A stretch of 50,344 nucleotides of DNA from Bacillus sp. ISL-55. Its GTDB lineage: Bacteria > Bacillota > Bacilli > Bacillales > Cytobacillaceae. The translations under genes were made by a program, and so were the position numbers. The stretch lies in assembly GCF_018613155.1 (NCBI RefSeq), contig NZ_JAGGQU010000010.1:1-50344 (forward strand), written 5' to 3'. The notes beneath the pieces were generated by a model that did no database searches, was not told the DNA's origin, and worked only from the letters and a program-made list of their open reading frames with translations. Of this stretch, positions 25,369 to 42,113 are shown one piece after another (position 1 is the first letter of the stretch; every line of letters begins with the position of its first letter).

Positions 25369-25797
25369 TACAATCTTCCTTTCTATCCTTTTCTGTTTAA
25401 ACTAAGACTCTACTTCTTCATTAATCATGAACGCAGTGCTACTCCGAACAAGAAGAAAAACACTCTAGCATTATCGAAATCGTAATAAGTGTTCTGATTC
25501 CTCTATTACAGGCGAATAACTAGATACATTTTTTATGATTAGCGGTGGGATCGCCCTTTTAGGGTAAGACTCGCTGTTAAAAGCAAATAAGTACCTCTAA
25601 AAGCTGTTGTTTTGTATACGCTTCTATGTATTTGCGACATACTTCTTTAATGATTATTTTACTATAACGAATGAAACAAGTCATACTGATATAATTCCCA
25701 CTGAGAATTCCGACTTGAAAAGCATCCTTCTAAATGAGTTTACCAGTTTTTTATTTCTACACTGGAATGAGACACGAGCGATTCATCTTTTACAGTA
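25369..25797 (-). promoter_or_regulatory. Leader and promoter region of lacZ
   Basis: About 430 AT-rich bases without a gene between the ABC operon terminator and lacZ. It should hold the lacZ promoter. The one clear signal is the cre-like site at 25613-25627; I could not fix the -35 and -10 hexamers. Confidence 0.5.
25613..25627 (-). promoter_or_regulatory. cre-like CcpA site upstream of lacZ
   Basis: The minus strand reads ATAGAAGCGTATACA, one mismatch from WTGNAANCGNWNNCW. It shares GCGTATACA with the transaldolase cre region (ACGTATACA). It lies about 245 bases before the lacZ start. Confidence 0.45.
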
Positions 25798-25826
25798 AAA
25801 AAAGAAGCCAACAGGCCTCTTTTTTC
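25797..25826. terminator. Terminator of the ABC transporter operon
   Basis: AAAAAAGAAGCC pairs with GGCCTCTTTTTT around a four-base loop, with one mismatch that is G-U on the minus strand. It starts a few bases after the stop of the second permease. Confidence 0.88.
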
Positions 25827-25831: not shown

Positions 25832-26641
25832 CTATCCTTTTACCGATCCTGCCGTCATACCGGCAATGAAATAGCGCTGCAGGAAAATATAGGCGATGAC
25901 CATTGGAGCTGATGCAATCATTACTCCAGTAAACAGCATCGGATAATTGGTCATATATTCTCCCTGGAACTCAAGGAGCGCAAGCGGCAATGTTTTATAA
26001 TCCTTATTGGTGATGAATAACAATGGGTACAGCAAGTCATTCCACACCATTACGAACAGGAATATTGCCGTTGCTGACAGGGATGGCAAGGATAGTGGCA
26101 TTGCAATCCTCGTGTACATCTGCCAGTTGGAAGCACCATCTATAGTACTCGCCTCGAACAGGGACTTTGGCAGAGATTTCATGAAGCCTGTCAATATAAA
26201 TACCGCAACCGGCAAGGTAACTGAGGTATTGACAACAATAAGACCTGTCAGGCTATTTGTCAGACCCAGGTCAAAGACAAGCTGATACAATGGAATCATG
26301 TTTACCTGCGCTGGAACCATCATCCCTAAGGTAAACAGACCAAATAGAGAATTACCGATCCAGCCTGACATACGGGTGATGGCAAATGCAATTAGGCTGG
26401 CAAAAAACAGAGTCATGCTGACTGAGATTAACGTGACAATTACGCTGTTAATGAAATACGTATTCATCGACTCTTCAATGAAGAGTGAAACATAGTTCTC
26501 AAAATCAAAGCTTTCAGGAAGTCCCAGTACGTCCTGGTACATTTCAGCAGAAGACTTAAATGTAGTAAAGAAGATTGATACTATTGGTATTGCAATTAGC
26601 AATGCATAGATGGTAATAAGCCCGCCTTTAGTAATCTTCAA
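25832..26641 (-). CDS. Carbohydrate ABC transporter permease, MalG/CUT1 type
   Basis: The second membrane subunit of a sugar importer, 269 residues. The start is TTG at 26641 behind AAGGAGGGGG. Six hydrophobic segments are visible, and the permease signature (EASTIDGASNWQMYTRIAMPLSLP) marks the cytoplasmic loop contacting the ATPase. It is 54 bases from the partner permease. No ATPase gene lies in this cluster; CUT1 importers commonly share a general MsmX-type ATPase encoded elsewhere, which I infer here. Confidence 0.93.
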   Translation of the reverse strand: MKITKGGLITIYALLIAIPIVSIFFTTFKSSAEMYQDVLGLPESFDFENYVSLFIEESMNTYFINSVIVTLISVSMTLFFASLIAFAITRMSGWIGNSLFGLFTLGMMVPAQVNMIPLYQLVFDLGLTNSLTGLIVVNTSVTLPVAVFILTGFMKSLPKSLFEASTIDGASNWQMYTRIAMPLSLPSLSATAIFLFVMVWNDLLYPLLFITNKDYKTLPLALLEFQGEYMTNYPMLFTGVMIASAPMVIAYIFLQRYFIAGMTAGSVKG

Positions 26642-26695
26642 GGCCTTCCCCCTCCTTCTTGGTTAATTCATATATCCCTCTAACTTAGGGAAGTT

Positions 26696-27577
26696 CTAGT
26701 TATTCACTCTGTCTGAGCGCAAAACTTTGAATTGAATGATGGTGATGATGGCAATCACGATCATAAAAATGACTGATGCAGCAGAAGCGTAGCCAAACTT
26801 AAAGCTTCTGAATGCTGTTGAGTATATAAATGTTGCGAGAATTTCTGTTGAATAGTTAGGGCCACCACGAGTCATCGCATAAATCAGGTCAAAGGCTTTG
26901 AAGGATTGAATGGTTGTATAAGCCACTACGATCGTAGCAGCAGGAGCAACCATAGGCCATGTAACAAACCGGAAACTCTGCCATCTGGAAGCACCTTCAA
27001 TTTTAGCTACTTCATATAAATCTTCCGGAATGTTTTGCAGGCCGGCTACGAAAATGATTAACATTTGACCTGTATGCATCCACACTTGTACGACAGCGAT
27101 TGAGAAGATGGCAATGTCCTGATCTCCCAGCCAGTTTTGCGAAAGAACTTCCAGGTTCAGCTTCCCTAAGATGGTGTTCAGAATTCCCAGATTTGGGTCA
27201 TAAATGAATGACCAGATGAATGCTACCGATACAGATGACAAGATGGTCGGGAAGAAATATAGGGCTCTCAAGAAGACATTTGTCTTTGTGTTTTTCACTA
27301 AATAAATAGCGAACAGTAAAGAAAATGCTGTCTGGAAAATAACAACGAATAACATGAACTTTATGTTATTGGAAAAAGCTTTTACAAAGATCGAGTCATT
27401 GGTAAAGATATTTATGTAGTTTTCAACACCGACAAAGTTATAGTCCGCTGTTAAACCATCCCAATCCGTGAGGGAATAGAAGATTGCACTCAAAGTTGGA
27501 TAAATAAAAAATATTGAATATAGAATCAGGCCTGGTAGCACAAAGAAGTATAACGCCTTATTTTGCTTGAGATTCAT
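26696..27577 (-). CDS. Carbohydrate ABC transporter permease, MalF/CUT1 type
   Basis: The first membrane subunit, 293 residues, with ATG after GAGGAGGGGG. Six transmembrane segments run from YFFVLPGLILYSIFFIYP to the C-terminal IFMIVIAIITII. The ATPase-contact loop reads EVAKIEGASRWQSFRFVTWPM. It lies between the binding protein and the MalG-type permease in one operon. Confidence 0.93.
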   Translation of the reverse strand: MNLKQNKALYFFVLPGLILYSIFFIYPTLSAIFYSLTDWDGLTADYNFVGVENYINIFTNDSIFVKAFSNNIKFMLFVVIFQTAFSLLFAIYLVKNTKTNVFLRALYFFPTILSSVSVAFIWSFIYDPNLGILNTILGKLNLEVLSQNWLGDQDIAIFSIAVVQVWMHTGQMLIIFVAGLQNIPEDLYEVAKIEGASRWQSFRFVTWPMVAPAATIVVAYTTIQSFKAFDLIYAMTRGGPNYSTEILATFIYSTAFRSFKFGYASAASVIFMIVIAIITIIQFKVLRSDRVNN

Positions 27578-27717
27578 AGAACCCCCTCCTCATGAATTGG
27601 AGTTAAGTATTTTAATAGAAAGAGGTTATCTCTTTACATAAGTAACACCCTGAGATATCAACCTGCTTTTAAAAAAAGAGAGAAGGAGAATGTCTCCCTC
27701 TCTCCCGTCTTGATGAT

Positions 27718-28968
27718 TTACTTGATGTTTTGATCGACGATTTTCTGCGCTGCTTCTGCAGCCTTCTTAGGATCTTCTCCGCCAAGTACAGATTGAATAG
27801 AAGCAATTACCGCTTTCTCTACGTCTGCATTAGGAATCAGGTAACGCGGCTGGAAGCGAGTCTTCTTTTCGCTCCACTCAGCAGCTGCTTTCAATGCTTC
27901 AGACTCATAGTTTACACCCGGTATGGTCAGGAATTGGCCTGTCTTGTTTGCATAGTATTCTGCATTTTCAGGCTGAGTAAGGAAGTTGATGAATTTCTTT
28001 GCTTCTTCTTTGTTTTTAGATTTGCTGTTTACCCCAAACATGAATGTTGTGGTATGGATCCCTTCATACTCCGCCTCGTCTGCAGACACTGTGATTGGAG
28101 CCAACAGTCCTAGTTCGATGTCAGGATTTAATTCTTGAATATTTGCCATCGCATAGGATCCAGTCGCAAGCATCGCTGCTTTTCCTTGAGCAACTTGTGC
28201 GATTGCCCCCTCATGCTTTGTACCAAGTGCATCAGCACCAAAGTAGCCTTTGTCCATTAGCTCTTGGAACTGAGTAAGGGTCTTGACCCACCATTCATCC
28301 GTAAGTTTTGCTTCACCATTCATCAGTTTCGCAAAAATTTCTTCATCCGGTGCATTGTTCATCATCATGGAGTTCATGAATTGTCCCGGACCAATATCAG
28401 CACCTGGGAAAGCGATTGGTGTATATCCGTTTTCCTTTAATTTCTCGTTCATTGCCAGGAAACCTTCCCAGTCATCTGGCGGCTCAATGCCAAGCTCTTT
28501 AAAAAGAGTCTTGTTATAGACCGGTTGGTTATATACAAGCTGGAATGGAAGTGCGAGCTGCTTGCCATCAGCTTCTCCGGCTGCGATCAGGTTCTCGTTG
28601 AAATTGCCAACAATATCATCACCTGTCAAATCTTCAAAAAGGCCAGCCTTTTTAATAATTTCAAACTGAGATCCAGGGAATGCTGTGAATACATCTCCAG
28701 TAGAACCATCACGGAGTAATGTTTGTGCCGTTGATTGATACTGCTCTGATGGATAAGCGGTCATTTCAACTTTAATACCAGGATTCTCTTTCTCAAATCG
28801 GCTAATCAATTCCTTGAAAACCTCAGAGTCTTCTCCACGCCAATGGATGAAGCTGATTTTCTTATCTCCCCCGTCGCCTTCTCCGCTGCTTTCTTTTGAA
28901 GAGCAGCCTGCCATGAAACTGGATACTAATAGAACCAACATTAGTAGTACCGAAAGCTTCTTTTTCAT
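27718..28968 (-). CDS. Extracellular sugar-binding lipoprotein of the ABC importer
   Basis: Family 1 solute-binding lipoprotein of about 416 residues; the lipobox is SSFMAGC. Two in-frame ATGs (28977 and 28968) sit close to AAGGGGG. I prefer 28968 because 28977 leaves only 2 bases of spacing. Mature sequence begins SSKESSGEGDGGDKKISFIHW and keeps the SBP1 pattern (MTAYPSEQYQSTAQTLLRDG, ALPFQLVYNQPVYNKTLF). It heads the ABC operon, which has its own promoter with a cre site. Location beside sulfoquinovose genes suggests import of sulfoquinovose, sulfoquinovosyl-glycerol or galactosyl-glycerol (inference). Confidence 0.92.
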   Translation of the reverse strand: MKKKLSVLLMLVLLVSSFMAGCSSKESSGEGDGGDKKISFIHWRGEDSEVFKELISRFEKENPGIKVEMTAYPSEQYQSTAQTLLRDGSTGDVFTAFPGSQFEIIKKAGLFEDLTGDDIVGNFNENLIAAGEADGKQLALPFQLVYNQPVYNKTLFKELGIEPPDDWEGFLAMNEKLKENGYTPIAFPGADIGPGQFMNSMMMNNAPDEEIFAKLMNGEAKLTDEWWVKTLTQFQELMDKGYFGADALGTKHEGAIAQVAQGKAAMLATGSYAMANIQELNPDIELGLLAPITVSADEAEYEGIHTTTFMFGVNSKSKNKEEAKKFINFLTQPENAEYYANKTGQFLTIPGVNYESEALKAAAEWSEKKTRFQPRYLIPNADVEKAVIASIQSVLGGEDPKKAAEAAQKIVDQNIK

Positions 28969-28999
28969 TTGGTACATTTCCCCCTTATTTTAAATAAAT

Positions 29000-29040
29000 A
29001 GGTCACAACATCACTATCTTATATACATATGTCGTGACCT
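29000..29040 (-). promoter_or_regulatory. Inverted repeat in the ABC operon leader
   Basis: AGGTCACAACAT (29000-29011) and ATGTCGTGACCT (29029-29040) form 12-base arms with one mismatch around a 17-base centre. It lies downstream of the predicted promoter and cre site and has no U-run, so it is more likely an operator or RNA structure than a terminator. Its left arm overlaps the shared motif at 29004-29020. Confidence 0.5.
29004..29020 (-). promoter_or_regulatory. 17-base motif shared with the transaldolase leader, copy 1
   Basis: The minus strand reads AAGATAGTGATGTTGTG. The transaldolase leader has the same sequence with one change at 37217-37233. It is a candidate operator of the GntR/UTRA regulator encoded in the cluster (inference). 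Confidence 0.45.
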
Positions 29041-29061
29041 TTAATCCCATTACTAAGGTGA

Positions 29062-29075
29062 TGACAGCGTTTTCA
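29062..29075 (-). promoter_or_regulatory. cre site for CcpA at the ABC operon
   Basis: TGACAGCGTTTTCA matches TGWNANCGNTNWCA at every position. It lies just downstream of the predicted transcription start, a usual roadblock position for carbon catabolite repression. Confidence 0.7.
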
Positions 29076-29146: not shown

Positions 29147-30049
29147 CTATAGAATAATATTTAAAATAACCGGCAGTGTAATAATGCTGCTGAGTGTACT
29201 GATCAGCGTGCAAGTGGATACAAAAACCGGCCTAGTATTGAACTGAAGTGCATACATTGTTGTATTCGTTGCCGATGGCATTGCCGCCAGGAGAATCATA
29301 ATATCTTTTACCTCTTCTGAAACTGGCAAAATAGACGCAAAAATAAGAGCGAGTATTGGTGCCACCATGAGTTTAATGATCAAAGAATAAGAGAGTTTCT
29401 CCACTTCAAGTTTTTTCAAGGAAATCTTTGCGAGCTGCATTCCGAGAATGACCATGATGGTCGGGATTGCTGCATCTGCCACTAAGTTAATTGACTTGTA
29501 AAACATGGAATCAATTGTTATTTCTAACAATTGAAAAACAATACCGAGCAGAGACCCATATACAATTGGCATTTTTGCCACTGCTTTAAAAGCTGTGTAT
29601 ATACCATCTTGTTGGTCGCTTCCTTTTGCGGCATAATATACGCCGATTGTACTCATGATCAGCTGCTGGATTACAAGCAAGATGACGGCAATGTCAAAGC
29701 CCGATTCTCCAAAGACAAATAGCACCACCGGTGTTCCGTAATTACCGTTGTTCATAAAAGCGGAAGATAAAATCAAGGAACTCGTTTCAGTGCGGGAGTA
29801 TTTTTTTATAAAAGATACTGCATACACGATGGAAATCAGGCCGAAGCATAATCCTAGCGCATAGATTGTCAAATAGAGATAATTCAGGTTGATTTCATTC
29901 TCATAGAAAGTCCTGAAGGCTAAAAAGGGAGACAGCAGATAGATAGCCATCTTCGATAAACTTCTGGGATCAAACCCTATTACCTTCTGTCCGACAAAAC
30001 CTATCGCGAATATACTAAACACCGGAAGCAGCACCAGCACAAACTCCAC
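29147..30049 (-). CDS. AEC-family permease, candidate sulfolactate exporter
   Basis: A 300-residue membrane protein of the auxin efflux carrier/malonate permease family, with about ten transmembrane segments in two halves. The GTG start at 30049 follows AAGGTGG. The family pattern is seen in SSAFMNNGNYGTPVVLF, which bears the conserved Asn/Gly crossover, and in ILLAAMPSATNTTMYA near the end. It follows the aldehyde dehydrogenase gene by 70 bases. Sulfo-TAL bacteria secrete sulfolactate, so an anion exporter is expected here; this position makes it the best candidate, but that role is inferred. Confidence 0.88.
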   Translation of the reverse strand: MEFVLVLLPVFSIFAIGFVGQKVIGFDPRSLSKMAIYLLSPFLAFRTFYENEINLNYLYLTIYALGLCFGLISIVYAVSFIKKYSRTETSSLILSSAFMNNGNYGTPVVLFVFGESGFDIAVILLVIQQLIMSTIGVYYAAKGSDQQDGIYTAFKAVAKMPIVYGSLLGIVFQLLEITIDSMFYKSINLVADAAIPTIMVILGMQLAKISLKKLEVEKLSYSLIIKLMVAPILALIFASILPVSEEVKDIMILLAAMPSATNTTMYALQFNTRPVFVSTCTLISTLSSIITLPVILNIIL

Positions 30050-30119
30050 AACTTTCCCACCTTTTCCTATCTACACTGCATCATTGTCCCCCGGGAGTAA
30101 CCCCTATCTCGTCAGAGGA

Positions 30120-31544
30120 CTACAGATTTAGGACTATGATGCGCTCTTCTGTCATTTCTTCTATGGCGTACTTAGGACCCTCTTTTCCAGTTCCGCTCCT
30201 TTTTACACCACCATATGGCATATGGTCAACACGGTAAGCCGAAGCATCATTCACGATTAGTCCGCCGACTTCAATCTGTTTTGCAGCTTTCATTGCAAAT
30301 CCAAGATTTGTAGTGAACAAACCTGCTTGCAAGCCATAATCCGAATCGTTGACCTTCTCGATCACTTCTTCTTCACTGGAGTATTTTTCAATGGAAATAA
30401 CCGGACCGAATACTTCCTGGCGGCATATTTTCATATCAGAATGAGTGTTTGTAAGAATAGTAGGTGAGTAGAAAGCACCGTCACGCTTTCCGCCAACAAG
30501 GATCTCAGCCCCCATTTCAACTGCTTCATTCACCCATGCTTCCACACGTTCCGCTTCTTCAAGGCGAATCATCGGCCCGACATTTGTTTCTGGATCAAAC
30601 GGATCTCCCACCTTCAATCCTTCTGTTTTCTCCTTTAAGCTTGATAGGAATTCATCATATACATTCTCATGGACATACACCCGCTGGACCGAAATGCAGA
30701 CCTGTCCCGCATTATTAAAGCTCTTTTGCGAAATCAATGTCGCAGCCTTTTCCAGCTCGGCATCATAATGGACAACCGTAGCGGAGTTATTTCCAAGCTC
30801 GAGGGCCACTTTTCGCAAGCCTGCTTTCTGACGGATCAATTCTCCCACACGCGGGCTTCCTGTAAAGGTAAACATATTGACATTTTTATTCGCCAATAAG
30901 GCATCACCGATTTGCGGGCCGTCACCGGTCAGCAAATTCAAACGACCTTTAGGCAAGCCGACTTCTTCGAATAATTTTGTTAAAAGAACGGCAGATACAG
31001 GCGTCACTTCAGCAGGCTTCAATACAACTGCATTACCGGCAGCCAAAGCAGGACCTACTTTATGGCAGACAAGATTCAACGGCACATTGAACGGAGTGAT
31101 GGCTGCAACAACCCCAACTGGCACGCGGACTGTAAAAGCCATGCGGTTCTCTGAACCCTGCGCACTTTCCACAGGAACTCCTTCTCCATGAATACGTTTA
31201 GCTTCTTCTGCCGAAATTTCCAATGTAAGAGCAGACCTCTCCACTTCACCGCGGCACTCACCCAGTGGCTTTCCTACTTCAGTGGCTAAAGCATTCGCAA
31301 ATTCTTCTTTTCTTTCAACTAATGTTTCTGCAGCCTTTTTCAAGACAAGATAACGATCATAAGGAGCCCAGTCTTGTTTGTAAGCTGTTTTTGCTGCTTC
31401 TACTGCCTGGTTCACATGTTCTTCACTAGCCACACTTATGGAGGCGAATGGCTCCCTAGTATATTTGTTAAGGACAGGCATTTTTTCTTCCGTTGCAATC
31501 CATTCACCATTTATGAACAATTCATAGTTTTTGCTTTCTCCCAT
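30120..31544 (-). CDS. sftD: NAD(P)-dependent aldehyde dehydrogenase, likely sulfolactaldehyde dehydrogenase
   Basis: A 474-residue ALDH superfamily enzyme with ATG behind GAGGAGAG. Catalytic Cys283 (NNAGQVCIS), general-base Glu249 (ALELGNN), Asn153 (PFNVPLN) and Lys176 (VLKPAE) are all in place. The family oxidises aldehydes to acids. In the sulfo-TAL pathway an ALDH turns 3-sulfolactaldehyde into sulfolactate, and this gene lies between the regulator and the candidate exporter in the SQ operon, which supports that role. The ALDH assignment is sure; substrate and symbol rest on context. Confidence 0.85.
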   Translation of the reverse strand: MGESKNYELFINGEWIATEEKMPVLNKYTREPFASISVASEEHVNQAVEAAKTAYKQDWAPYDRYLVLKKAAETLVERKEEFANALATEVGKPLGECRGEVERSALTLEISAEEAKRIHGEGVPVESAQGSENRMAFTVRVPVGVVAAITPFNVPLNLVCHKVGPALAAGNAVVLKPAEVTPVSAVLLTKLFEEVGLPKGRLNLLTGDGPQIGDALLANKNVNMFTFTGSPRVGELIRQKAGLRKVALELGNNSATVVHYDAELEKAATLISQKSFNNAGQVCISVQRVYVHENVYDEFLSSLKEKTEGLKVGDPFDPETNVGPMIRLEEAERVEAWVNEAVEMGAEILVGGKRDGAFYSPTILTNTHSDMKICRQEVFGPVISIEKYSSEEEVIEKVNDSDYGLQAGLFTTNLGFAMKAAKQIEVGGLIVNDASAYRVDHMPYGGVKRSGTGKEGPKYAIEEMTEERIIVLNL

Positions 31545-31560
31545 TCATCTCACTCTCCTC

Positions 31561-32298
31561 TTATCGTTTTAATTCAATGTCATAATGGTATTGATCACTT
31601 CGATATTTCGTCCGGGTGTATTCAATTGGTTTATCATCAATCCCGAAGCTTAGGCGGGACATTTCGAGCAAAGCCTCTCCTCCTCGAATGCCAAGTAGAT
31701 CGGCTTCATATATTGTGGCGTTCATAGCCGAAATTTTCTCCTTCGCCCGCTTCAGAATGATATTGTTATGTTCAAGAATTTCGTAAAATTTAGCAGAGTT
31801 TAAGTCATGTTTAATTAGGATCTCCCCGATATGTTCAGGCCAGCATGAACGCTCCAGCGCAATCGGCATACCATCAGCAAATCGTACACGGTCGACGATC
31901 AGTATTCTAGAATCTTCAGGAACCCCTAAGTTCAGTTTTTCTTCATATAAGGCTTCTGTGAACTCCACCCGCATCAATTTGGAATGGGGTGTCAGACCTT
32001 TTTCCATGACTTCTTCTGCAAATCCCTTCAGCCTGCCGAGACTTCCGACAAGCTGTTGTGGTTTGACAATGGTACCCTTTCCCTGGCGCTTCTCTAAAAG
32101 CCCATCCTGTACAAGCATGGAAATGGCTTGCCTAATTGTAGTTCGGCTGACATCGAATTCTTTCATTAAATCCTGCTCAGTAGGAATGAGAGTATTCGGC
32201 TCCCATATCCGATTTTGTATTCTTCTGATGAGGATATCCTTCACCTGTTGATAAAGAGCAATATTCTTATTGGTATCGATTCCGTTTTCAACCATCAT
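31561..32298 (-). CDS. GntR-family (HutC/UTRA) transcriptional regulator
   Basis: A 245-residue DNA-binding regulator. Residues about 10-75 are a winged helix-turn-helix (SIPTEQ-like IPTEQDLMKEFDVSRTTIRQA, then GLLEKRQGKGT), and about 90-240 a UTRA ligand domain (LGVPEDSRILIVDRVRFADG, ERSCWPEH, LEMSRLSFG). UTRA regulators usually bind sugar phosphates or related acids and repress their own locus. It is the fifth gene of the SQ operon, 20 bases from the isomerase, so sensing an SQ pathway intermediate is likely (inference). Candidate operators are the shared 17-base motif or the GTATAC cores in the leaders. Confidence 0.9.
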   Translation of the reverse strand: MMVENGIDTNKNIALYQQVKDILIRRIQNRIWEPNTLIPTEQDLMKEFDVSRTTIRQAISMLVQDGLLEKRQGKGTIVKPQQLVGSLGRLKGFAEEVMEKGLTPHSKLMRVEFTEALYEEKLNLGVPEDSRILIVDRVRFADGMPIALERSCWPEHIGEILIKHDLNSAKFYEILEHNNIILKRAKEKISAMNATIYEADLLGIRGGEALLEMSRLSFGIDDKPIEYTRTKYRSDQYHYDIELKR

Positions 32299-32318
32299 AC
32301 CTTTTGGTTCCCTTCTTT

Positions 32319-33662
32319 TTAAGCACCATAATATTCAGTGCGTAGTCCAAGGCGCTTACCTAGTGAAAGCAATTCCTCGGTAACATCAGCATAGACAATG
32401 GCGTAATGTGGCTCATATCCACTTTCCATCAAGGAATATAACGTCTCCTGCACATCGCCTTGAAGTGCAACTTCAACTGAAGTACCTGAAAACGGCTGTT
32501 CCACATCAAGAGCCTCACCTTTCATGACGAGCAGCCGGTATCCGTCGGCATCTTCGCTCAGCCTGAATATTGTTACCCCTCCTGCTTTCAAGCCAAACTC
32601 CATCGTCAATCCCATCTTGCGGTTCGGATGGACCCCGGCCTGTGCACCAGTAGACGGACGTGCCAGTGAATAGGCTCCTGCACCACAATGCCAAAATACG
32701 ACCGAGTTGTTCTCTTCATTGACATGGACAAGGTCTCCCAGATAGGGTGCACTGCCATTGCTCAGCTCTTGTAAAATGTACATGGAGATTGAACCGTTGA
32801 TGTCTGACTCACAGGCAGAAACGACACCATATTCAGTGAACTGGGAAAGCGTGGAACAAGCAGCAGCACCAAGTTCATTGAAAAAGTCCGGCCAGCAGCG
32901 AATGGCAAGTGCCTTGATTTCTTCTGACTCAATATATTTTTCCACATACGTGTAGAACTGGGCAAACCTCTGTACTGTCTGATCTGTTTTGTTTAGGCCC
33001 ATCACATGTTTTTCTGCGAGTTCGAGGGCCGACGAATACTCTTCTTCCGTCAGCTTTTTGCATTCCTCAAAGGCTTTAAGCAGCTCTATCTTCTTTAAGC
33101 TGACTCCAATTTCCTCTTTGAGTTTCTCTTCGTTCGTATCGGAGAAGAAAAATCCTGGAGGGTGTTCACCGATGACTCCCACTTTTAACTGCTTCAGGCT
33201 GTTCACCATATAGTTCACTTTCAACTCAACCAGCATTTTTTGCTGAAGAGTTTCTTCCGAAGGATTCCCGAAAACAAAAGAGTATGGGTGTCTATGAACT
33301 TTCAAGAGGTTGCTTGTTGCATTCCCTCCGGTTAGCGAGTTCAGGCGCAGACGTCCGCCAACACTCGGCTCCCTTACCGACCAGACAACGATTGGCTCTT
33401 TTCTTTTTTGGATGACAGCGTATGGGAACTCCCCGTCAGCAAATGTAGTGCTTTGATAAATGATGCTGTCAAATTGCTTATCCTTGAACTGATCCAATAA
33501 AGCGTTCAGTTCTTCCGGAGATGTGATGATGTTCTCCGATGTATATATATCTTTAACCATTCCCTCGAGCATATGGACAGTATCTTTTCTATATTGTTCA
33601 GCTGTTTCTAAATCGAATGTCTTCCTCCCGATCGGTAAGTAAAGTATCGATGTATTAAGCAT
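32319..33662 (-). CDS. sftI: Sulfoquinovose isomerase (fucose/arabinose isomerase-like)
   Basis: A 447-residue protein started at ATG after AAGGAGAG. It looks like the L-fucose/L-arabinose isomerase fold. Glu285 (ACESD), Asp310 (LGDLV) and His325 (WHCG) fit the usual Glu/Asp/His metal-ligand order of that superfamily. In sulfo-TAL bacteria a member of this family converts sulfoquinovose to 6-deoxy-6-sulfofructose. It lies 20 bases downstream of the sulfoquinovosidase gene and upstream of the regulator. The fold is inferred from motifs and the substrate from its partners. Confidence 0.82.
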   Translation of the reverse strand: MLNTSILYLPIGRKTFDLETAEQYRKDTVHMLEGMVKDIYTSENIITSPEELNALLDQFKDKQFDSIIYQSTTFADGEFPYAVIQKRKEPIVVWSVREPSVGGRLRLNSLTGGNATSNLLKVHRHPYSFVFGNPSEETLQQKMLVELKVNYMVNSLKQLKVGVIGEHPPGFFFSDTNEEKLKEEIGVSLKKIELLKAFEECKKLTEEEYSSALELAEKHVMGLNKTDQTVQRFAQFYTYVEKYIESEEIKALAIRCWPDFFNELGAAACSTLSQFTEYGVVSACESDINGSISMYILQELSNGSAPYLGDLVHVNEENNSVVFWHCGAGAYSLARPSTGAQAGVHPNRKMGLTMEFGLKAGGVTIFRLSEDADGYRLLVMKGEALDVEQPFSGTSVEVALQGDVQETLYSLMESGYEPHYAIVYADVTEELLSLGKRLGLRTEYYGA

Positions 33663-33681
33663 GAAAGACTCTCCTTCTAAT

Positions 33682-35727
33682 CTATAAGTTTCTTAAATTC
33701 CTGAATAGCTCCGACCATTGGGAATCTTTACGATAGAAAACGGGTGTATTTCCAAGAGGTGCAGCCACTGTATGGGTCCCGCCGGAAAATTCCTCACCTG
33801 ACCAGAGATGGATCCAATTATCTTCTGGCAAGTAGACATCCCAGGTGCTTCTGCCTTCTGCATAGACAGGCGCAACGAGCATATCCCTTCCATATAAGTA
33901 CTGATATTTAATGTCATAGGCGGTTTTGTCATCCTCGTAGTGCATAAATAACGGACGCTGCACCGGCAGTCCCTTTTCAGCATTTTCTTTTACCAGGCTC
34001 TTAGTATATGGAGCAAGCGCGCAATAGACATCAGTCATCCTCTTGAAGTGATCCATCGTTTCATCGTCTGCATCATACTGAACACAGTCATATGGACGGT
34101 TTCCTTCATGAGAGCGAAGTACAGGCGTGAAGGCAGCCATGTCCATCCACCTTAATAGAAGTTCTTTATCACGCTTGATCCCATGCAAACTTGTGTAGCC
34201 GCCGATATCACTGTGGTGAAGTCCCATTCCAGACATACCTGCGGAAAGTGCAGCCGGGATGACAGATGCCAGGCCGTCATCAAGCGACCAGTCCACCGAC
34301 TGGTCTCCTGCCCAAAGAAGTGTGCAGTATTTTTGGAATCCTGCATAGCCGGCTCTCATAAAGTAAACGACTTCTCCCAGTTTTCCTGCTTCCTTGACAG
34401 CTTCATAATTTGCTTTTGCCCAAAGTACAGGCCATTCATTATGCTTCATCATGGCTGGCTCGCCGCTGCTTAAGTAAAGGTCAGTCGGCAGGTATTCACC
34501 AAAGTCTGCCATCCAGCCATCAAGTCCGAAATCAATGAGATTTTTCTTTATGACACCTTTATACCATTTGAAGGCTTCTTCGTTTGTAAAATCGATGACA
34601 CCGCAGTCAAACTCGCCAAAATCAATAATATATGTTTTCCCCTCGGCATCTAGCGCGAAGTAACCATGCTCTTCCGCTTCCTTGAAAAGGTTTCCCTCCA
34701 CTGCTAAATAAGGATTGATATATCCAAGGAACTTAATGCCTTTTTCCTTCCACTCTTTAAGCTTCTGGTCGAGACCCGGATACTCCTCCGGATTCCATTG
34801 CCAGTTCCACATCAATCGTTTCCCGAAAGAGGTGATCCTTTTTCCTTGCCAATCCTGGCACCATACCCCCGAAACCTTGATTCCTTTGTCTAATGCCTTA
34901 TTGATTTTTTCATCTACGAGATCGGTACCGCCCTGCATCCCAAGAATGATTCCGTCATAGATCCATTCCGGCAGTTCCGGCTGGCGGCCGAACTTCGCCG
35001 TGATTTTTTCAGTCAGACCTACATAACTTTCTGCCCCTTCGAGGACAATCTGCTTTGGAAGTTCCCATACATGAAGCTCGTGGAAGCCTTCCCTGCGGAA
35101 GTTAAAGTCAGCATAAGCCGTCGTCTCCACATGGCAGTAGTATTTTTCACTTGAAACGAAAGTAGTCTGCGGATAGTTTGTATGATAGTAGTCACCGCCG
35201 GCTTTGCCTGTCACATCCGCCATCCAGGTTACATAGGTGGATTTGTTCCTGCCAACCCCTGGTTCTGAGGTCCATAATGGAAAGTTCTTGCCACGAAGGT
35301 TGAAGTACGACATCTGTTCACCGCAGCCATAGATTTTCTCTTCCTTTTCGGCATTGAGGCGGAACCAAAAACGGTTGATTCGAGGATCACGCCGGTGAAA
35401 ATCCATAGTGATTTTATTATCTTCATGAGTCAATGTCAGATCAAACAAAGGTGGTGAGAAATCATTCATTGTAAAGAATGTCAGCTCGAGTTGGTTTTCC
35501 GATTTCTTTTTTATTTCCGCATATCGCAGTGGCACTCTTGCTTCAAGATAATCCTGCAGATTGAAGTTTCCGCGGTACATTTCAACAATCTCTTCTCCAT
35601 TCCCAACATAAAAGCAAGGGTGGTTTAGTGAATGCTGAATCAGCGGTTCATCATTCCACTTTACGACTAACTCATTTTCACTTCTTTCATAAGAGAATCC
35701 TGCCCCAAGTTTCACATAGGCTGTCAT
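33682..35727 (-). CDS. sftG: Sulfoquinovosidase, glycoside hydrolase family 31
   Basis: A cytoplasmic alpha-glycosidase of 681 residues that releases sulfoquinovose from sulfoquinovosyl-glycerol. ATG follows GAGGGG. The nucleophile is Asp408 (GWMADFGE) and the acid/base Asp475 (LLWAGDQS). The residues that read the sulfonate in E. coli YihQ (Gln262, Gln288, Arg301, Trp304, Tyr508) are all matched at a constant +3 offset: Gln265, Gln291 (WCQDWQG), Arg304 and Trp307 (GKRLMWNWQW), and Tyr511 (HHSDIGGY). YihQ catalytic Asp405 and Asp472 show the same offset. This is the strongest single piece of evidence for the pathway. There is no signal peptide, so the glycoside must be imported. Confidence 0.95.
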   Translation of the reverse strand: MTAYVKLGAGFSYERSENELVVKWNDEPLIQHSLNHPCFYVGNGEEIVEMYRGNFNLQDYLEARVPLRYAEIKKKSENQLELTFFTMNDFSPPLFDLTLTHEDNKITMDFHRRDPRINRFWFRLNAEKEEKIYGCGEQMSYFNLRGKNFPLWTSEPGVGRNKSTYVTWMADVTGKAGGDYYHTNYPQTTFVSSEKYYCHVETTAYADFNFRREGFHELHVWELPKQIVLEGAESYVGLTEKITAKFGRQPELPEWIYDGIILGMQGGTDLVDEKINKALDKGIKVSGVWCQDWQGKRITSFGKRLMWNWQWNPEEYPGLDQKLKEWKEKGIKFLGYINPYLAVEGNLFKEAEEHGYFALDAEGKTYIIDFGEFDCGVIDFTNEEAFKWYKGVIKKNLIDFGLDGWMADFGEYLPTDLYLSSGEPAMMKHNEWPVLWAKANYEAVKEAGKLGEVVYFMRAGYAGFQKYCTLLWAGDQSVDWSLDDGLASVIPAALSAGMSGMGLHHSDIGGYTSLHGIKRDKELLLRWMDMAAFTPVLRSHEGNRPYDCVQYDADDETMDHFKRMTDVYCALAPYTKSLVKENAEKGLPVQRPLFMHYEDDKTAYDIKYQYLYGRDMLVAPVYAEGRSTWDVYLPEDNWIHLWSGEEFSGGTHTVAAPLGNTPVFYRKDSQWSELFRNLRNL

Positions 35728-35758
35728 CGATACCCCTCATTTCATTCACTCTTATAAT

Positions 35759-36430
35759 CTATCTGTAGTAGATCTCCAGGTTTTCCCCTCGAATCCCTGG
35801 ATGTGCTCCTCTGTCTATCATTCGTTTGTTATCCGGATGTGCCAACACCCACTTATTCTTCATTAAAAGAAGTGGGTCCTTTGGACTTCCTTCTTCTAGT
35901 TCAGTATTCGTACCTTGTGGTAAAACAACAATGCACTTAAAACCATTGTCTGAAGTTTTACATGGAGCCAAATGGAGAGTGGTGCCGTACATCTCGATCA
36001 CTGTTCCCTCTGGCAGGTAAAATGCACTTAAATTATTGCTAACATAGGTTCTATCTTCTGTTATATCCTGCACACTGCCGAGAAGAAGGATCATATCAGT
36101 CACCGCGACATTGATTTCACTGCCTTTATGGAATTCTAGCCCATTCAGATTCGAGTTCCTTCCATTGCAATAACCAACCTGAACAGGGAACTCTCCGTAT
36201 ACGTCGTTTTGGAAATCCTTTTTGACGGGATCGCTTTCCATTTCCGGGACACTGGCGATATATACATTTCCTTCTTCCGGGATTCCTGTTTTTTCTTTAA
36301 CGTAGTCCATCAGCGAGGAAACATCATAACCTTTCAAGACCTTTCCAAAGGGACGAAACGCCTCACCTTCAATATGGTGAAATTTCAAATGTGTATTCAG
36401 ACTTTTCAGCTCATCAAACCGAGAGGTCAT
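35759..36430 (-). CDS. DUF4867-like cupin protein of the sulfoquinovose operon
   Basis: A 223-residue protein. I start at ATG 36430, with AAAGGAG upstream; a longer frame from a TTG at 36463 is less likely. The core looks like a cupin: a first motif with His101 and Glu105 (LEFHKGSEIN) and a second with His153 (YGTTLHLAPC), which could bind a metal. It sits second in the operon between the transaldolase and sulfoquinovosidase genes. Proteins of this kind recur in sulfo-TAL clusters as I recall, but no biochemical role is established that I know of. A mutarotase or sugar-phosphate isomerase role would fit a cupin (inference). Confidence 0.72.
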   Translation of the reverse strand: MTSRFDELKSLNTHLKFHHIEGEAFRPFGKVLKGYDVSSLMDYVKEKTGIPEEGNVYIASVPEMESDPVKKDFQNDVYGEFPVQVGYCNGRNSNLNGLEFHKGSEINVAVTDMILLLGSVQDITEDRTYVSNNLSAFYLPEGTVIEMYGTTLHLAPCKTSDNGFKCIVVLPQGTNTELEEGSPKDPLLLMKNKWVLAHPDNKRMIDRGAHPGIRGENLEIYYR

Positions 36431-36508
36431 AAAAAAACTGTCTCCTTTACCACTCCAAGGCAATGTGCAGTTATGCCATCGCCTTAAAGTTCAATTAAAG
36501 TGAAGAGG

Positions 36509-37174
36509 TCATTCTGTTTCCGTGTTGTCCCATGCATCGCGAAATACAGTTAATCCGTAGTCTGTGAATGCGTGGTGGAAGCTTGCTTTGTACACATCAA
36601 ATCCGCAAGTGACAATATCCGCTCCTGCCTTAGCAGCATCAGCAATCTGTTTTCCGTTTCGCAAGGCAGCTACGATTATTTCAGTTTCATAACCATATGT
36701 ACGGTAAATGTTCACGATATCTTGAATATATGGTCCTGTATCTTCTCCGCTTTGCTCTTTCCAGCCAACGAACGGAGAAACAAAAGCAGCTCCGACACGT
36801 GCCGGCTGCAGTGCCTGGGAAGGTGAGAATACAAGCGTTACATTTGTACGGATTCCTTCTTCTTCAAGCATTTTCGCTGCGATTAATCCTTGTTCTGTAC
36901 ACGGAATCTTGATAATGAAGTTGTCTGAAAGGCTCGCAAACTTCCTGCCTTCGGATACCATTTCATTAAAATCATCAAGATGCGGATTGATCTCTATTGA
37001 AATCGGAAAATTATCCACCCCTTTAAACTCATCCGCCAACTCTTGTAAAATAGCAACCAACGGTTTTCCGCTATTCATGATATGTTTCGGGTTTGTAGTA
37101 ACCCCATCAATCCCCCAATGTTTGTATGCATAACGGATTTCATCAATCTTCGCGCTGTCCAAGAAATACTTCAT
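36509..37174 (-). CDS. sftT: Sulfofructose transaldolase (TalC/MipB-type)
   Basis: A 221-residue transaldolase of the small decameric TalC/fructose-6-phosphate aldolase class. ATG at 37174 has GGAGG 7 bases upstream; the frame opens earlier but only this start has a ribosome binding site. The Schiff-base lysine is Lys89 (FIIKIPCT). Other class features are the N-terminal FLDSAKIDEIR, GVTTNP, and NVTLVFSPSQAL. In sulfo-TAL the enzyme moves a dihydroxyacetone unit from 6-deoxy-6-sulfofructose to glyceraldehyde-3-phosphate, giving fructose-6-phosphate and sulfolactaldehyde. It is the first gene of the operon, behind a promoter overlapped by a cre site. Context, not sequence alone, sets the substrate. 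Confidence 0.87.
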   Translation of the reverse strand: MKYFLDSAKIDEIRYAYKHWGIDGVTTNPKHIMNSGKPLVAILQELADEFKGVDNFPISIEINPHLDDFNEMVSEGRKFASLSDNFIIKIPCTEQGLIAAKMLEEEGIRTNVTLVFSPSQALQPARVGAAFVSPFVGWKEQSGEDTGPYIQDIVNIYRTYGYETEIIVAALRNGKQIADAAKAGADIVTCGFDVYKASFHHAFTDYGLTVFRDAWDNTETE

Positions 37175-37216
37175 CACTATTACCTCCAATATTTGTAGTA
37201 ACATAATTACCTTTAA

Positions 37217-37233
37217 CAAAACATCACTATCTT
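37217..37233 (-). promoter_or_regulatory. 17-base motif shared with the ABC leader, copy 2
   Basis: The minus strand reads AAGATAGTGATGTTTTG, one base different from 29004-29020. It lies just downstream of the predicted transcription start of the SQ operon, a position suited to a repressor. Confidence 0.45.
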
Positions 37234-37240: not shown

Positions 37241-37269
37241 ATTTTATGAAAACGTATACAAAATATCAA
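37241..37269 (-). promoter_or_regulatory. Sigma-A promoter of the sulfoquinovose operon
   Basis: On the minus strand TTGATA (37264-37269) and TAAAAT (37241-37246) are separated by exactly 17 bases. It lies about 70 bases upstream of the transaldolase start. Confidence 0.75.
37246..37260 (+). promoter_or_regulatory. cre site for CcpA overlapping the sulfoquinovose promoter
   Basis: ATGAAAACGTATACA matches WTGNAANCGNWNNCW at every position. It fills most of the spacer and touches the -10, so bound CcpA should block RNA polymerase. Confidence 0.75.
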
Positions 37270-37532: not shown

Positions 37533-38993
37533 CTAGTTCCCCAATACCACCGGGTCGTTAAATGTAATACTGTCCTGTTCGACATTATCTATGACAATCC
37601 AGGAATTTTCTGCTGGATTGTACTGGACGATATATTTATAATAGTAAGTTTTTGCGCTTAAATCTGGCTCTTCCAGTGCATCTCTTTGCTTCCAGCCGCT
37701 CAGGTATTCTTCAGCGACATTCACAGTGGCAATATATTTGTTTCCGTTTTTGTCCAGTTCCAATGATGCAGCATCAAAGGTCATGTTGTTCAGTTCGCCC
37801 GCATACGAAACATTTCGGGACTTAAGGTCAGTTATGGTATCTAGGATCTTTTCAAGCTTCTTACCGCTTACATTCACAAGGTAAGTCGGATCTACGTAGA
37901 CAATTGAATCGATATAGGAACGATTATAATTATAGATGCTGTTGAACACAGAGTAGGAGATTTCATCTGTTGCATTCTCCATTTCCAGCGAGATGCTTTC
38001 TCCCGCATTCGCAACATATTCTTCTGTGGCTGCTTCTCCCCATGGGTAATCGACACGGGCCTGGATGGTCACAGCTCTACCCGCAGGAATCGGTCCGGCC
38101 TTAATGACTGATTCGCTTGAAGACACATGTAATTTCCCATCCAAGTATAATTCGACTTCACCGAAAGGGTTCTTTACTGTCACGTAATTCTCTTCAAATA
38201 GGAGGCTGACAGGCTGGGTTATATCACTCCATAGTTGCAGGGTAGTTTTCTTTTCTAAGGCACCGAATTCTCCATCTTTGACAGCCAGAAGGTCGTAACT
38301 TCCAGGCAAGACTCCTTTTACCTTAGGCGTTTTGGAACTATTCTTAATCTCTTTCTCATTGATAAACAACTGGGCATCTGGATCTACCTCAACTGAAAAG
38401 GAAACCGGATGGACCAGCACTTCATATTGATCAATCAATAAATACTTTTTATCTTTCTTTCTGGAAATCTCAAAAATAACAGGATTTACTTTTTCCCCCT
38501 TACCGCTTTCCAGGTAAGTCTCCTGCTCTTTGATGCTCTTTTCCGTTTGCATCAGCGCTTCTTCGCTATCTTCAAACAAGGCATTTAATTGTTCAAGCTC
38601 ACTTCTGTTCAAAGCCTTTTCATTATCACTGCGGATAATCAAACCTGACATTTCCTCAAGGTGACCTTTCTTCATGCTTTCAGTTAATAGATTAGCTGTT
38701 TGACCAGGAGAGGATTCTGCTTTTGCATAAAAAAACGCACCCATACCGGCTGCAATCAGCAATACTGCCGCAACAGCTCCAATGATGGCCTTACTCTTGC
38801 CCCTTGATTTCTTTTGAGGTTTGACCACTTCAAGACAATGATGAGGAGCATCTCCGATTGCCTCCCCACAGGTATTGCAATAGTCATTAGCAGGAAGATT
38901 AACTGCTTTTGGCGGCACGTATTTATGGCCGCAATTCGTACAAAAAGTGGAACCAGGCTGGAGTTTGGATCCACATTCATTACAAAAATTCAT
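37533..38993 (-). CDS. Zinc-ribbon, single-pass membrane protein of the TcaA/YvbJ type
   Basis: A 486-residue protein, last of a four-gene operon. ATG follows GAGGTG. The N-terminus has a zinc ribbon (CNECG and CTNCG), a second partial one (CNTCGEA with HHC), and one transmembrane helix at about 70-90. The large outer part has repeated TcaA-like beta domains (for example LFINEKEIKNSSKTPKVKGVLPGSYDL) and a C-terminal NTF2-like region (YIVQYNPAENSWIVIDNVEQ). TcaA-type proteins are linked to the cell envelope and glycopeptide response in S. aureus; the function here is unknown. Confidence 0.85.
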   Translation of the reverse strand: MNFCNECGSKLQPGSTFCTNCGHKYVPPKAVNLPANDYCNTCGEAIGDAPHHCLEVVKPQKKSRGKSKAIIGAVAAVLLIAAGMGAFFYAKAESSPGQTANLLTESMKKGHLEEMSGLIIRSDNEKALNRSELEQLNALFEDSEEALMQTEKSIKEQETYLESGKGEKVNPVIFEISRKKDKKYLLIDQYEVLVHPVSFSVEVDPDAQLFINEKEIKNSSKTPKVKGVLPGSYDLLAVKDGEFGALEKKTTLQLWSDITQPVSLLFEENYVTVKNPFGEVELYLDGKLHVSSSESVIKAGPIPAGRAVTIQARVDYPWGEAATEEYVANAGESISLEMENATDEISYSVFNSIYNYNRSYIDSIVYVDPTYLVNVSGKKLEKILDTITDLKSRNVSYAGELNNMTFDAASLELDKNGNKYIATVNVAEEYLSGWKQRDALEEPDLSAKTYYYKYIVQYNPAENSWIVIDNVEQDSITFNDPVVLGN

Positions 38994-39055
38994 CTTTTCA
39001 CCTCATGATTTTAACTTAAGAGAAGACGAGGCCCACAATCGCAGGCCCCATTTTC

Positions 39056-40480
39056 TTATATATCAGTAGAAGACAACTCATTAGTAGACAACAAGGAAAA
39101 CACTTTTAGTTCCGAATCGCGATACCACTTTAGCAAATATTGTGTTTGGAAAACTTTATGCTTGGTCGATCCGTCTTTATAAGTAATATAGTATTCTTCC
39201 TCCATAAGGACTGAATAACCATCACTCATTTCCTCCGAATCCACCAATTTAGTAGAAATAACTTTTTCCGTGATTCCCTTCGATTCCAGATACTTGATAT
39301 AATCCTTTGATTCCGCATATGTACTTCCATCAGGATGGTGGTAATCAGCGATATAGGAAAAATCTCGCGCATTGATTGCATCGATACCAGAGGATACATA
39401 CTCATTCATGAACGTCCATAGTTCGTCTTCAGAATAGCTTTTTTCTGTATAATCCTCCGAGTCCGAGACAACCTCTTCTGGTTCGTATTCATCTTCTTTG
39501 AACCATAGTTTCGCTTCATCATATTCGACGCTGACGACATTGCTCTTAACCTTACCAGAGGACCCATCAATAACAGCATAAATCTTCATCGACCCATCGG
39601 CCGTTACGGGACCAAATCCATCCATTTCTTCGATTGTTTTCCCCGTGCTTTTGCCATTGATATAGACAATCGCATCTTCGCGGTTAGTTCGCAAAGAAAG
39701 ATGGATACCCTCCAGGGCCACATATGCCTCAATGATATTATCGGAACCCTCAGTAGGATAGACAGATTGTAATGATTCTAATTCAGCATAATCACCTTTA
39801 TATGTTCCGGAAATTTCATATTCTCCTGGTAAAAACAACCCCACCTTGGTGAAGTCCTCTGCCTTTCCCAGCTTCTTTGCCTTATTTCCGTCTACCTGGA
39901 CTGATACGCCTTCATAATTAGAGGCAGCCATGATTTTAAGTGGCACCGCCTGAATTCCATACTGCTTATAGAATAAGAATTTCTTTCCGTTTTCGACAAC
40001 TTGCAAAATACGGTGACCATTAGAATCTTGAACAGGGTCGGTCTTCCGGCCGCTCTTCGCTTTCCTCAAATCGTCCGTAAGCTCTTTCATGATCCCATCG
40101 AAATCATTTTCCTCTGTCAGATAGGAAGCGAATTCCTGTACATCTTTAGTGTCAAAATCTACATCGGTGTCACTTTCCCGAAGAATTTCTGCTATAGTGG
40201 CCGAATCTTTTGTTTCAACCGCTTTTTCAAATTCCCAAAGAATCTTCTCAGGCTTATAGATATTAGAAAGCACTAAATGTGCAGCCACTAGAAAGACTAA
40301 AACGGCAATGGCTCCTGTAAAAAGGAGAATAGTAGGTTTTGACAACTTTATGCCTGATGATTTCATCTCACGAGTAACAGCGTGATTAGCCTGTTCTGTG
40401 TTTGTCAGTTTACCGCCGCAATTGGGACAAAAGGTCTTGCCTTTTGGAACAGAAGTGCCGCAATGATTACAATAAAACAT
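39056..40480 (-). CDS. Zinc-ribbon, single-pass membrane protein of the TcaA type
   Basis: A 474-residue paralogue of its downstream neighbour. ATG follows GGAGC. Residues 1-25 form a zinc ribbon (CNHCG, CPNCG), about 50-72 a transmembrane helix, then TcaA-like domains (EKAVETKDSATIAEIL, HRILQVVENGKKFLFYKQYG, GLFLPGEYEISGTYKGDYA). The C-terminal NTF2-like stretch ends with YLLKWYRDSELKVFSL. The cytosolic ribbon with a large outer domain suggests envelope sensing or scaffolding (inference). Confidence 0.87.
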   Translation of the reverse strand: MFYCNHCGTSVPKGKTFCPNCGGKLTNTEQANHAVTREMKSSGIKLSKPTILLFTGAIAVLVFLVAAHLVLSNIYKPEKILWEFEKAVETKDSATIAEILRESDTDVDFDTKDVQEFASYLTEENDFDGIMKELTDDLRKAKSGRKTDPVQDSNGHRILQVVENGKKFLFYKQYGIQAVPLKIMAASNYEGVSVQVDGNKAKKLGKAEDFTKVGLFLPGEYEISGTYKGDYAELESLQSVYPTEGSDNIIEAYVALEGIHLSLRTNREDAIVYINGKSTGKTIEEMDGFGPVTADGSMKIYAVIDGSSGKVKSNVVSVEYDEAKLWFKEDEYEPEEVVSDSEDYTEKSYSEDELWTFMNEYVSSGIDAINARDFSYIADYHHPDGSTYAESKDYIKYLESKGITEKVISTKLVDSEEMSDGYSVLMEEEYYITYKDGSTKHKVFQTQYLLKWYRDSELKVFSLLSTNELSSTDI

Positions 40481-40495
40481 TGTCCTGTGCTCCTT

Positions 40496-42112
40496 TTATG
40501 ATTGTCGAAGTCTGGTAAGCCATGATCCAGCATAAGAGAACAAGAAAGCAAACAGGAAACTACGTATGAACATCCCGAAACCGGAGAATCCCCATTCCAT
40601 TTCCATCTTTCCAGAATCAAAACCAGAGAGTTCTGCAGTGAAGCCCATGTCTGTAATAGCCGCAATTCCGGCAAGAAGAATCGCATAAACGAAACTGAAT
40701 ACAGCAAGTTCGACGATTCCGTTCCCTTTGCTGGCTATCCTGTATCCTGCCCAGACAAACAAGAGGATTGGTATGATGAACGCAAGCTTCAGGTATAGGG
40801 GAATATCCAACATTTCCAGACCTTTTTCAAGGAAAAATAGCTCTTGTTCCCCTTCACCATTAGCACTTAAACCTGACCAGACGGAATAGGAGATGGAACC
40901 AACATCCCCATTTTCATTGCCACTAAAAGTGAATTTCCCAAAGTGAATCAAGTTCCACACGTACAAACTTAGCTGGGCTGCTATAGTGACGACAAATAAG
41001 TAAATTTTATCGACTAAACCTTGTAGTCCCAGTTCATAAGCAGCCCAGTCTTTTGCCATATCCAACTTGCTTGAAATGAAAATGACGAAAAAGACAAATA
41101 GCAGGATGACACCTCTTACCATTGTGGAGAAAGCCTGATGTATAGCCTCACCATATGGAATCATTTCCGATAGGTTGCCAGTGAACTTACGGAAGTTCTG
41201 CGCAAAAAGCATTCCCAGTCCGGCAAACACAAATGCCATAATAAAGCCAGTGAAGAGAGAACCAAAAAAGGAATAGTCAATGCCCAGTTTGATATCAAGA
41301 TTCAGAGCATCTTCACGAATCTTCTCGCTGAAGGACAGGCCTGCAAAAAGCGAGATGACAGATAAAGTCAATCCATAGAGAACAGAAATTGCCAGATTCG
41401 ATTCCAATAACCCTTTATCCGTATTCCGGTTACGATAGCCAGCAACCACCCCTCCAATGAATAGTGCAATGAAAGGAACCAGAAGATAGATAATTAAACC
41501 GCTCCACATATCGACGGAAGTCTCTACTTCCCCTTCCTCGCCATACATTTCTCCATCGAAAGAGGCATATAACTCTGGATTCACAAAGTGTGAGACCATG
41601 ATAATATCGGTTAGACCAAAGATTTTATCTAAAGCTGGTATATCTGCTCCTGTCTGATCAGCAATTTCTTCTATCATGTAGGAAAGATCGGCCTCATCTG
41701 CCACATCAGCCATCAAAGTGTCGAAAGCTTCCTTAGAAAATGTGAGTAAGCTAAAAGATATAATAATAAGTGCTAATAGAGAAACAATAACAGGCATAAT
41801 GGCTTGCTTAAAACTGTCCATACTTGGGAGCTTTACAGTACTTAGCAGCTTGTCTGCCTGAAGACTTTCCTTATTGATTGGGGGAATGCTAACTTGTGCA
41901 CCGCTTCTCCCTTTTGAAAACTGGGTCATTGAGCTTCCGCAGGACTGGCAGTAGTTTTGATCACCTTTTCCCGGTGTTCCGCAATCAGGGCAAAAATGCT
42001 TTGTTGCTGCAGCATTGAATTTTGCAGCTGTTAGCGGGAGCAGCAATGTACCATCATTAGGACAATAATTCGCTGCATCTATGCTTTTTTCTCCACATGC
42101 TTTACAGTACAT
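40496..42112 (-). CDS. Zinc-ribbon multi-pass membrane protein
   Basis: A 538-residue protein. The ATG lies one base after the previous gene's stop, with AGGAGGGG inside that gene, so translation is probably coupled. Two zinc ribbons (CKAC/CPND and CPDC/CQSC) precede about nine hydrophobic segments (from MPVIVSLLALIIISFSLLTF on). I do not recognise a named family. It is likely the membrane core of the zinc-ribbon operon. Confidence 0.82.
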   Translation of the reverse strand: MYCKACGEKSIDAANYCPNDGTLLLPLTAAKFNAAATKHFCPDCGTPGKGDQNYCQSCGSSMTQFSKGRSGAQVSIPPINKESLQADKLLSTVKLPSMDSFKQAIMPVIVSLLALIIISFSLLTFSKEAFDTLMADVADEADLSYMIEEIADQTGADIPALDKIFGLTDIIMVSHFVNPELYASFDGEMYGEEGEVETSVDMWSGLIIYLLVPFIALFIGGVVAGYRNRNTDKGLLESNLAISVLYGLTLSVISLFAGLSFSEKIREDALNLDIKLGIDYSFFGSLFTGFIMAFVFAGLGMLFAQNFRKFTGNLSEMIPYGEAIHQAFSTMVRGVILLFVFFVIFISSKLDMAKDWAAYELGLQGLVDKIYLFVVTIAAQLSLYVWNLIHFGKFTFSGNENGDVGSISYSVWSGLSANGEGEQELFFLEKGLEMLDIPLYLKLAFIIPILLFVWAGYRIASKGNGIVELAVFSFVYAILLAGIAAITDMGFTAELSGFDSGKMEMEWGFSGFGMFIRSFLFAFLFSYAGSWLTRLRQS

Positions 42113-42113
42113 T

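Follow-up and report, generated by a model that had tools for sequence, protein, structure and literature searches.

Sulfoquinovose (SQ) is the sulfur-carrying sugar of leaf lipids. The locus described here lies in a 50,344-bp stretch of Bacillus sp. ISL-55 (contig NZ_JAGGQU010000010.1, positions 1 to 50,344; hereafter the window) and resembles the transaldolase-type SQ pathway (sulfo-TAL or SFT) of Priestia/Bacillus megaterium DSM 1804 and P. aryabhattai SOS1. That system shares with the window an SQ isomerase, a 6-deoxy-6-sulfofructose (SF) transaldolase, a DUF4867 cupin, a sulfoquinovosidase (SQase), an aldehyde dehydrogenase and the end at sulfolactate, which is predicted for the window. 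For aerobic Bacilli, an oxidative end to sulfolactate is given in PMC12890257 and PMC9594981. We are highly confident that ten minus-strand genes of the window form such an aerobic-Bacillus sulfo-TAL cluster, including an ATP-binding cassette (ABC) importer, under probable control by a GntR/UTRA protein through a shared DNA site. Most of the locus is ordinary; among its new details, this likely shared control site is the most useful.

Genes of the core and the importer

Seven tightly packed genes occupy positions 29147-37174 of the minus strand. The gaps between the open reading frames (ORFs) as listed are, in order from the transaldolase to the AEC permease, 45, 31, 19, 20, 16 and 70 bp. The gene order is SF transaldolase, DUF4867 cupin, GH31 sulfoquinovosidase, SQ isomerase, GntR/UTRA regulator, aldehyde dehydrogenase and AEC permease. 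Family profiles identified DUF4867 (PF16161), GH31, Fucose_iso_C, UTRA with GntR, Aldedh and Mem_trans/AEC, and the transaldolase is FSA/TalC-like. A three-gene ABC sugar importer at 25832-28977 extends the locus to ten genes in all. The first-pass annotation had read the seven genes as a consecutive minus-strand set for the sulfo-TAL route, with all YihQ sulfonate-recognition residues and both catalytic aspartates of the GH31 enzyme at a constant offset of +3. Its ORF coordinates and families were found again, the route was borne out by the SftI score, the identity to the B. megaterium SF transaldolase (BmSF-TAL) and the SQase and SqvB structure matches described below, and all seven residues were kept in the alignment. 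The identity, residues and order of the genes are direct observations, and on sequence grounds it is well supported that the seven genes are a well-preserved copy of the sulfo-TAL pathway already described in aerobic Bacilli. No ORF for an SF kinase or an SF phosphate aldolase was found at 25.8-37.2 kb, which sets the locus apart from the sulfo-EMP2 type.

Close homologues with solved structures exist for the transaldolase, the SQase and the cupin. The transaldolase (sftT/sqvA, 36509-37174, minus strand like all genes of the locus) has 221 residues, is collinear with BmSF-TAL (8bc3) and is identical to it at 171 of 221 positions (77%). Lys89, the Schiff-base residue of the SF transaldolase according to PMC12890257, is kept. 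The ORF opens at a TTG at 37219; the start was placed at the ATG at 37174, as in the earlier annotation, because the protein is then exactly collinear with the characterised enzyme. The FucI-related isomerase (sftI/sqvD, 32319-33662) scores 791.6 bits with the curated NCBIfam SQ isomerase model NF048012, above its cut-off of 700. Its score against Pfam Fucose_iso_C was 27.1 bits, under the cut-off of 29.3, and a search of the PDB gave no match up to E = 1.

The GH31 enzyme (sftG/yihQ, 33682-35727) has sulfoquinovosidase entries of the same family as its best PDB matches. Against these entries it scored 1096.9 bits (8r56), 963.9 bits (6pnr) and 903.2 bits (E. coli YihQ, EcYihQ, 5aed), and at most 163.2 bits with other GH31 enzymes. 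Gln265, Gln291, Arg304 and Trp307 align with Gln262, Gln288, Arg301 and Trp304 of EcYihQ, with the letters checked in both proteins. Asp408, Asp475 and Tyr511 agree with the residues expected at an offset of +3 and lie within aligned identical motifs. EcYihQ Asp405 is named in PMC11968277, where 6pnr appears under accession 6PNR.

The metal-binding cupin (sftX/sqvB, 35759-36430; PF16161, 260 bits) is listed from a TTG at 36463. An ATG 11 codons in, at 36430, has the better ribosome site, and we take it as the probable start. The protein matches the B. megaterium SqvB structure 9gyy with 264.9 bits and all four metal ligands aligned. These are Glu97, His99, Glu103 and His150 in SqvB (PMC11968277) and Glu110, His112, Glu116 and His164 in the window cupin (positions counted by hand on the ORF as listed). 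The role proposed for the cupin, ring opening or mutarotation of SQ or SF, is unproven.

The aldehyde dehydrogenase (sftD/slaB, 30120-31544; PF00171, 536 bits) is a putative 3-sulfolactaldehyde dehydrogenase. Its residues Phe152-Asn153-Val154, His161 and Asn277 match the Bacillus-type positions, all at -3; for B. megaterium SlaB, PMC10599462 gives the same Phe-Asn-Val tripeptide along with the His/Asn pair. The presence of a dehydrogenase gene and not a reductase gene, the enzyme of anaerobes at this step, is consistent with sulfolactate as the product, as in aerobic Bacilli. The AEC-family permease (29147-30049; PF03547, 107 bits) is, by its gene position, the likely sulfolactate exporter.

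Related clusters were collected from named genomes. The scan gave 70 loci (the genome that holds the window may be missing from its records), from which L158, L165 and L167 were dropped because no ORF was labelled SftI at at least 50% identity. The remaining 67 loci were reduced to 34 by dereplication at 85%; 40 further 20-kb regions overlap the named set and were kept out of its counts. The GntR/HutC-type regulator with UTRA domain (31561-32298; PF00392 and PF07702) reached no NCBIfam equivalog at its cut-off. A homologue is labelled in most named clusters, and the protein is the likely repressor of the locus.

The importer consists of a solute-binding lipoprotein (27718-28977; PF01547, 137 bits) and two PF00528 permeases, one of the MalF/UgpA type (26696-27577) and one of the MalG type (25832-26641). 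The ligand of the binding protein is likely to be SQ or SQ-glycerol. This prediction draws on association with the cluster, because similarity to SmoF (7nbz) is weak. No ATPase gene was found among the Pfam-typed genes of the stretch; a MalK-type OB domain is encoded at two loci of the genome, both on other contigs. All three importer genes (at least 50% identity) are present in 26 of the 67 named clusters. A transporter of 593-597 aa, by its sequence a putative sodium-solute symporter, occurs in 39, in seven of them with the importer, and nine clusters have neither. The importer is hence a recurrent partner of sft clusters. Between the binding-protein and permease genes, a hairpin with T-run (27676-27706, minus strand; -22.6 kcal/mol, z -3.50, 0/200 shuffles as good) is a probable partial terminator, and was also detected by the consensus terminator scan.

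A candidate shared control site

An identical 14-bp sequence, AAGATAGTGATGTT, precedes both sftT (37220-37233, minus strand) and the binding-protein gene (29007-29020, minus strand) with no mismatch. A weaker copy follows the first site 20 bp on, at 37200-37213. Only the exact pair is telling, because the window holds 15 matches at up to three mismatches against 8.0 expected. A search of the whole genome with the degenerate form AARRTARTGATGTT gave three exact matches, namely the two operator-like sites and one on contig C30, which was set aside since it lies inside a coding sequence. Some variants of the site, such as AACATCATGATGTT, are perfect dyads.

That the repeat is the site of another regulator, or recurs by chance and is no GntR operator at all, is a serious if unlikely alternative. 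It would agree with the genome-wide count of AARRTARTGATGTT at up to one mismatch, which at 32 is close to that of the reversed-pattern control (26). Exact copies were also not enriched in clusters (3/110 regions against 1/192, p 0.14), and at up to two mismatches the site was present in just 18 of the 34 dereplicated clusters, with 16, about half, having no copy. The alternative accounts poorly for the out-of-sample test, in which the named loci, after dereplication, were searched in their intergenic regions for AAGATAGTGATGTT at up to two mismatches. Here, 25 of 110 cluster regions had the site against two of 192 neighbouring control regions (p 2.7e-10). The reversed seed was found in 0/110 and 1/192 regions, respectively, and the counts before dereplication were 37/234 and 8/384. 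Copies are often paired, with 14 pairs 20 or 21 bp apart, which likewise argues against chance. The recurrence of the site is observed; the 14-bp site is probably the operator of the GntR/UTRA protein and would link the importer to the operon.

A broader proposal, to which we give an even chance, is that one GntR/UTRA repressor acts on sulfoglycolysis across Bacillota through the imperfect dyad AARRTARTGATGTT, often doubled at 20-21 bp, in transaldolase and EMP2 clusters alike, with the site recruiting interchangeable importers (ABC or symporter-like). SQ uptake would then be defined by the regulon rather than by transporter family, with the ABC importer as a second family for uptake of SQ or SQ-glycerol. 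The candidate operator and the importer assignment can be tested in clusters of the same kind. In the literature found on SQ with GntR and operator, titles and the beginnings of abstracts do not treat the regulator, which is no proof that such a site is unpublished.

A possible sigma-A promoter of sftT (TTGATA-17-TAAAAT, 37241-37269, minus strand) is overlapped by a cre-like site on the plus strand at 37246-37260. Both are proposed by position, because the consensus scans did not exceed chance (46 promoters against 42.1 expected; one cre against 1.05). The consensus terminator scan was likewise near chance by count, and positions and folds were used instead. A long inverted repeat, GGTCACGACAT...ATGTTGTGACC (28975-29075, minus strand), surrounds the second operator-like site. 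This segment folds at -23.7 kcal/mol (z -3.0, 0/200 shuffles as good) and is perhaps an added control element.

The beta-galactosidase and the border of the locus

The first-pass annotation had further suggested that the gene order, the importer and a beta-galactosidase may make up a new version of the pathway. This was not supported, as the importer recurs in named clusters, the order recurs in Metabacillus litoralis (below) and the beta-galactosidase is separate. A functional role of the latter, for instance on the galactosyl-glycerol of galactolipids that accompany the sulfolipid in leaf membranes, would be suggested by its position on the same strand adjoining the locus, and a lactose link of the E. 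coli SQ genes is reported in PMC5816610. We regard such a role as very improbable, and as a pathway member the gene was rejected. It starts 463 bp beyond the last importer permease gene, and the gap holds a hairpin with T-run (25797-25825, minus strand; -19.2 kcal/mol, z -2.79, 5/200 shuffles as good). This hairpin is the likely terminator of the importer unit; it is absent from the list of the consensus terminator scan. Ahead of the beta-galactosidase there is no match to the 14-bp site below three mismatches. The gene was found in 0/67 named clusters, a count that might miss some, as flanks were at most 10 kb and in part shorter.

Comparison within the genus pointed the same way. A close orthologue is present in 4 of 21 genus genomes (its own, and three with 93, 90 and 88% identity); a fifth has weak matches only. 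In the sister genome G085, window positions 12123-25431 align to one stretch with 92.5% DNA identity over 13,364 aligned positions, so that G085 retains the beta-galactosidase and its right-hand neighbours without the sft genes. The first 8 kb of the window also align, with gaps, to the same contig. The G082 orthologue has a melibiase, a ROK regulator and gal genes as neighbours. Terminator, synteny in G085, gene context in G082 and absence from the named clusters together indicate a neighbour of separate origin, and the beta-galactosidase is not to be counted as part of the SQ pathway.

The stretch that adjoins the beta-galactosidase of G085 (the rest of L178 and L211) lacks window 25.9-50.3 kb entirely. 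Therefore, the left border of the difference was placed near 25.86 kb. The comparison gives this border and not the other one, and thus falls short of an empty-site proof of recent insertion. Base composition gave no clear island signal (G+C 0.39-0.46 in the sft genes, 0.35-0.45 in the neighbours).

Several points weigh against the assignment of the ten genes to SQ. The best NCBIfam model of SftD is lactaldehyde dehydrogenase (538.8 bits, below the cut-off of 650), its best PDB match is the lactaldehyde dehydrogenase 3pqa, and no curated model in the NCBIfam search labels it a sulfolactaldehyde enzyme. The binding protein is closer to other sugar-binding proteins (107 bits) than to SmoF (39.7 bits), and cupin activity was sought in relatives and not detected according to PMC11968277. 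A paralogous transaldolase and GH31 pathway for another sugar, unsulfonated or different such as sulfofucose, would fit a dehydrogenase and a binding protein that are not specific by sequence, and is hardly credible in view of the complete sulfonate-recognition residues, the passed SftI equivalog and a transaldolase so close to an assayed SF enzyme.

In the sulfo-TAL reading of the locus, SQ or SQ-glycerol would be taken up by the ABC importer with an ATPase from elsewhere in the genome. SftG would free SQ, the cupin may open the ring, and SftI would convert SQ to SF. SftT would transfer the C3 unit that carries no sulfonate to glyceraldehyde 3-phosphate, and the products would be fructose 6-phosphate and sulfolactaldehyde. 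The latter would be oxidised to sulfolactate by SftD and exit through the AEC permease. The GntR/UTRA protein would repress two promoters, of sftT and of the binding-protein gene, through the shared site, with release probably by SQ or a derivative.

Other features of the window were also recorded. Four adjacent zinc-ribbon proteins lie at 37533-42614 (minus strand), three of them of 474-538 aa; a protein search with the first (37533-38993) recovered it from 1 of the 21 genus genomes. In a 592-aa protein (46810-48588, plus strand), S_4TM (SMODS-associating 4TM effector, PF18159, 80.5 bits), a membrane domain linked to defence, is joined to a LicD domain (PF04991, 104.6 bits), which is an unusual combination. 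A protein with an IS200-like Y1 transposase domain (PF01797; 49053-49859, minus strand) lies near the contig end. Window 2333-18874 encodes several large surface-type proteins (5'-nucleotidase-like, subtilase-like, leucine-rich and others) with a common repeated module, which by eye seems to resemble cell-wall-binding repeat 2.

Distribution and comparison with known clusters

SftI exceeded its cut-off in 4 of the 193 family genomes and in 48 of 397 genomes drawn from the order, both counts taking in the window's genome. Of the 21 genus genomes examined, 1 has it, and the locus is a well-preserved carrier for the genus. A close SQase was present in no other of these 21 genomes, other matches being about 27-33% identical among the matches listed. 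This patchy distribution is compatible with horizontal gain or with repeated loss.

Judged by SftI, Metabacillus litoralis SW-211 (L099) is the closest named relative (82%). All ten genes are present there in the identical order T-X-G-I-R-D-AEC-SBP-MalF-MalG, with 59-88% protein identity, and a new gene order was therefore rejected. L099 differs in that no beta-galactosidase stands next to it and the following gene is in opposite orientation. Counted by eye, the core seven also occur in this order without insert in L115 and L164, and with an extra transporter in L104, L105, L106, L107, L108 and L110. In one of the latter, Sutcliffiella horikoshii KcN35-3 (L106), the same seven genes are followed by an ABC importer; in contrast to the window, the 593-597-aa transporter lies between cupin and SQase, and a second GntR gene is present. 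A second GntR gene was also seen between the SQase and isomerase genes in L112, L113, L116, L117, L120 and L161.

The SmoEFGH importer for SQ-glycerol of Agrobacterium is likewise a CUT1-type sugar importer adjoining a sulfoquinovosidase gene, whereas the binding protein of the window is distant from it (39.7 bits) and the window locus has no ATPase gene. Sulfo-EMP2 clusters (e.g. Fictibacillus, L101) are alike in the SftI, SQase, cupin, GntR, dehydrogenase and AEC genes. They differ in having genes X390 and X296, taken from length and neighbourhood to be the SqiK kinase and the SqiA aldolase, where the window has its transaldolase.

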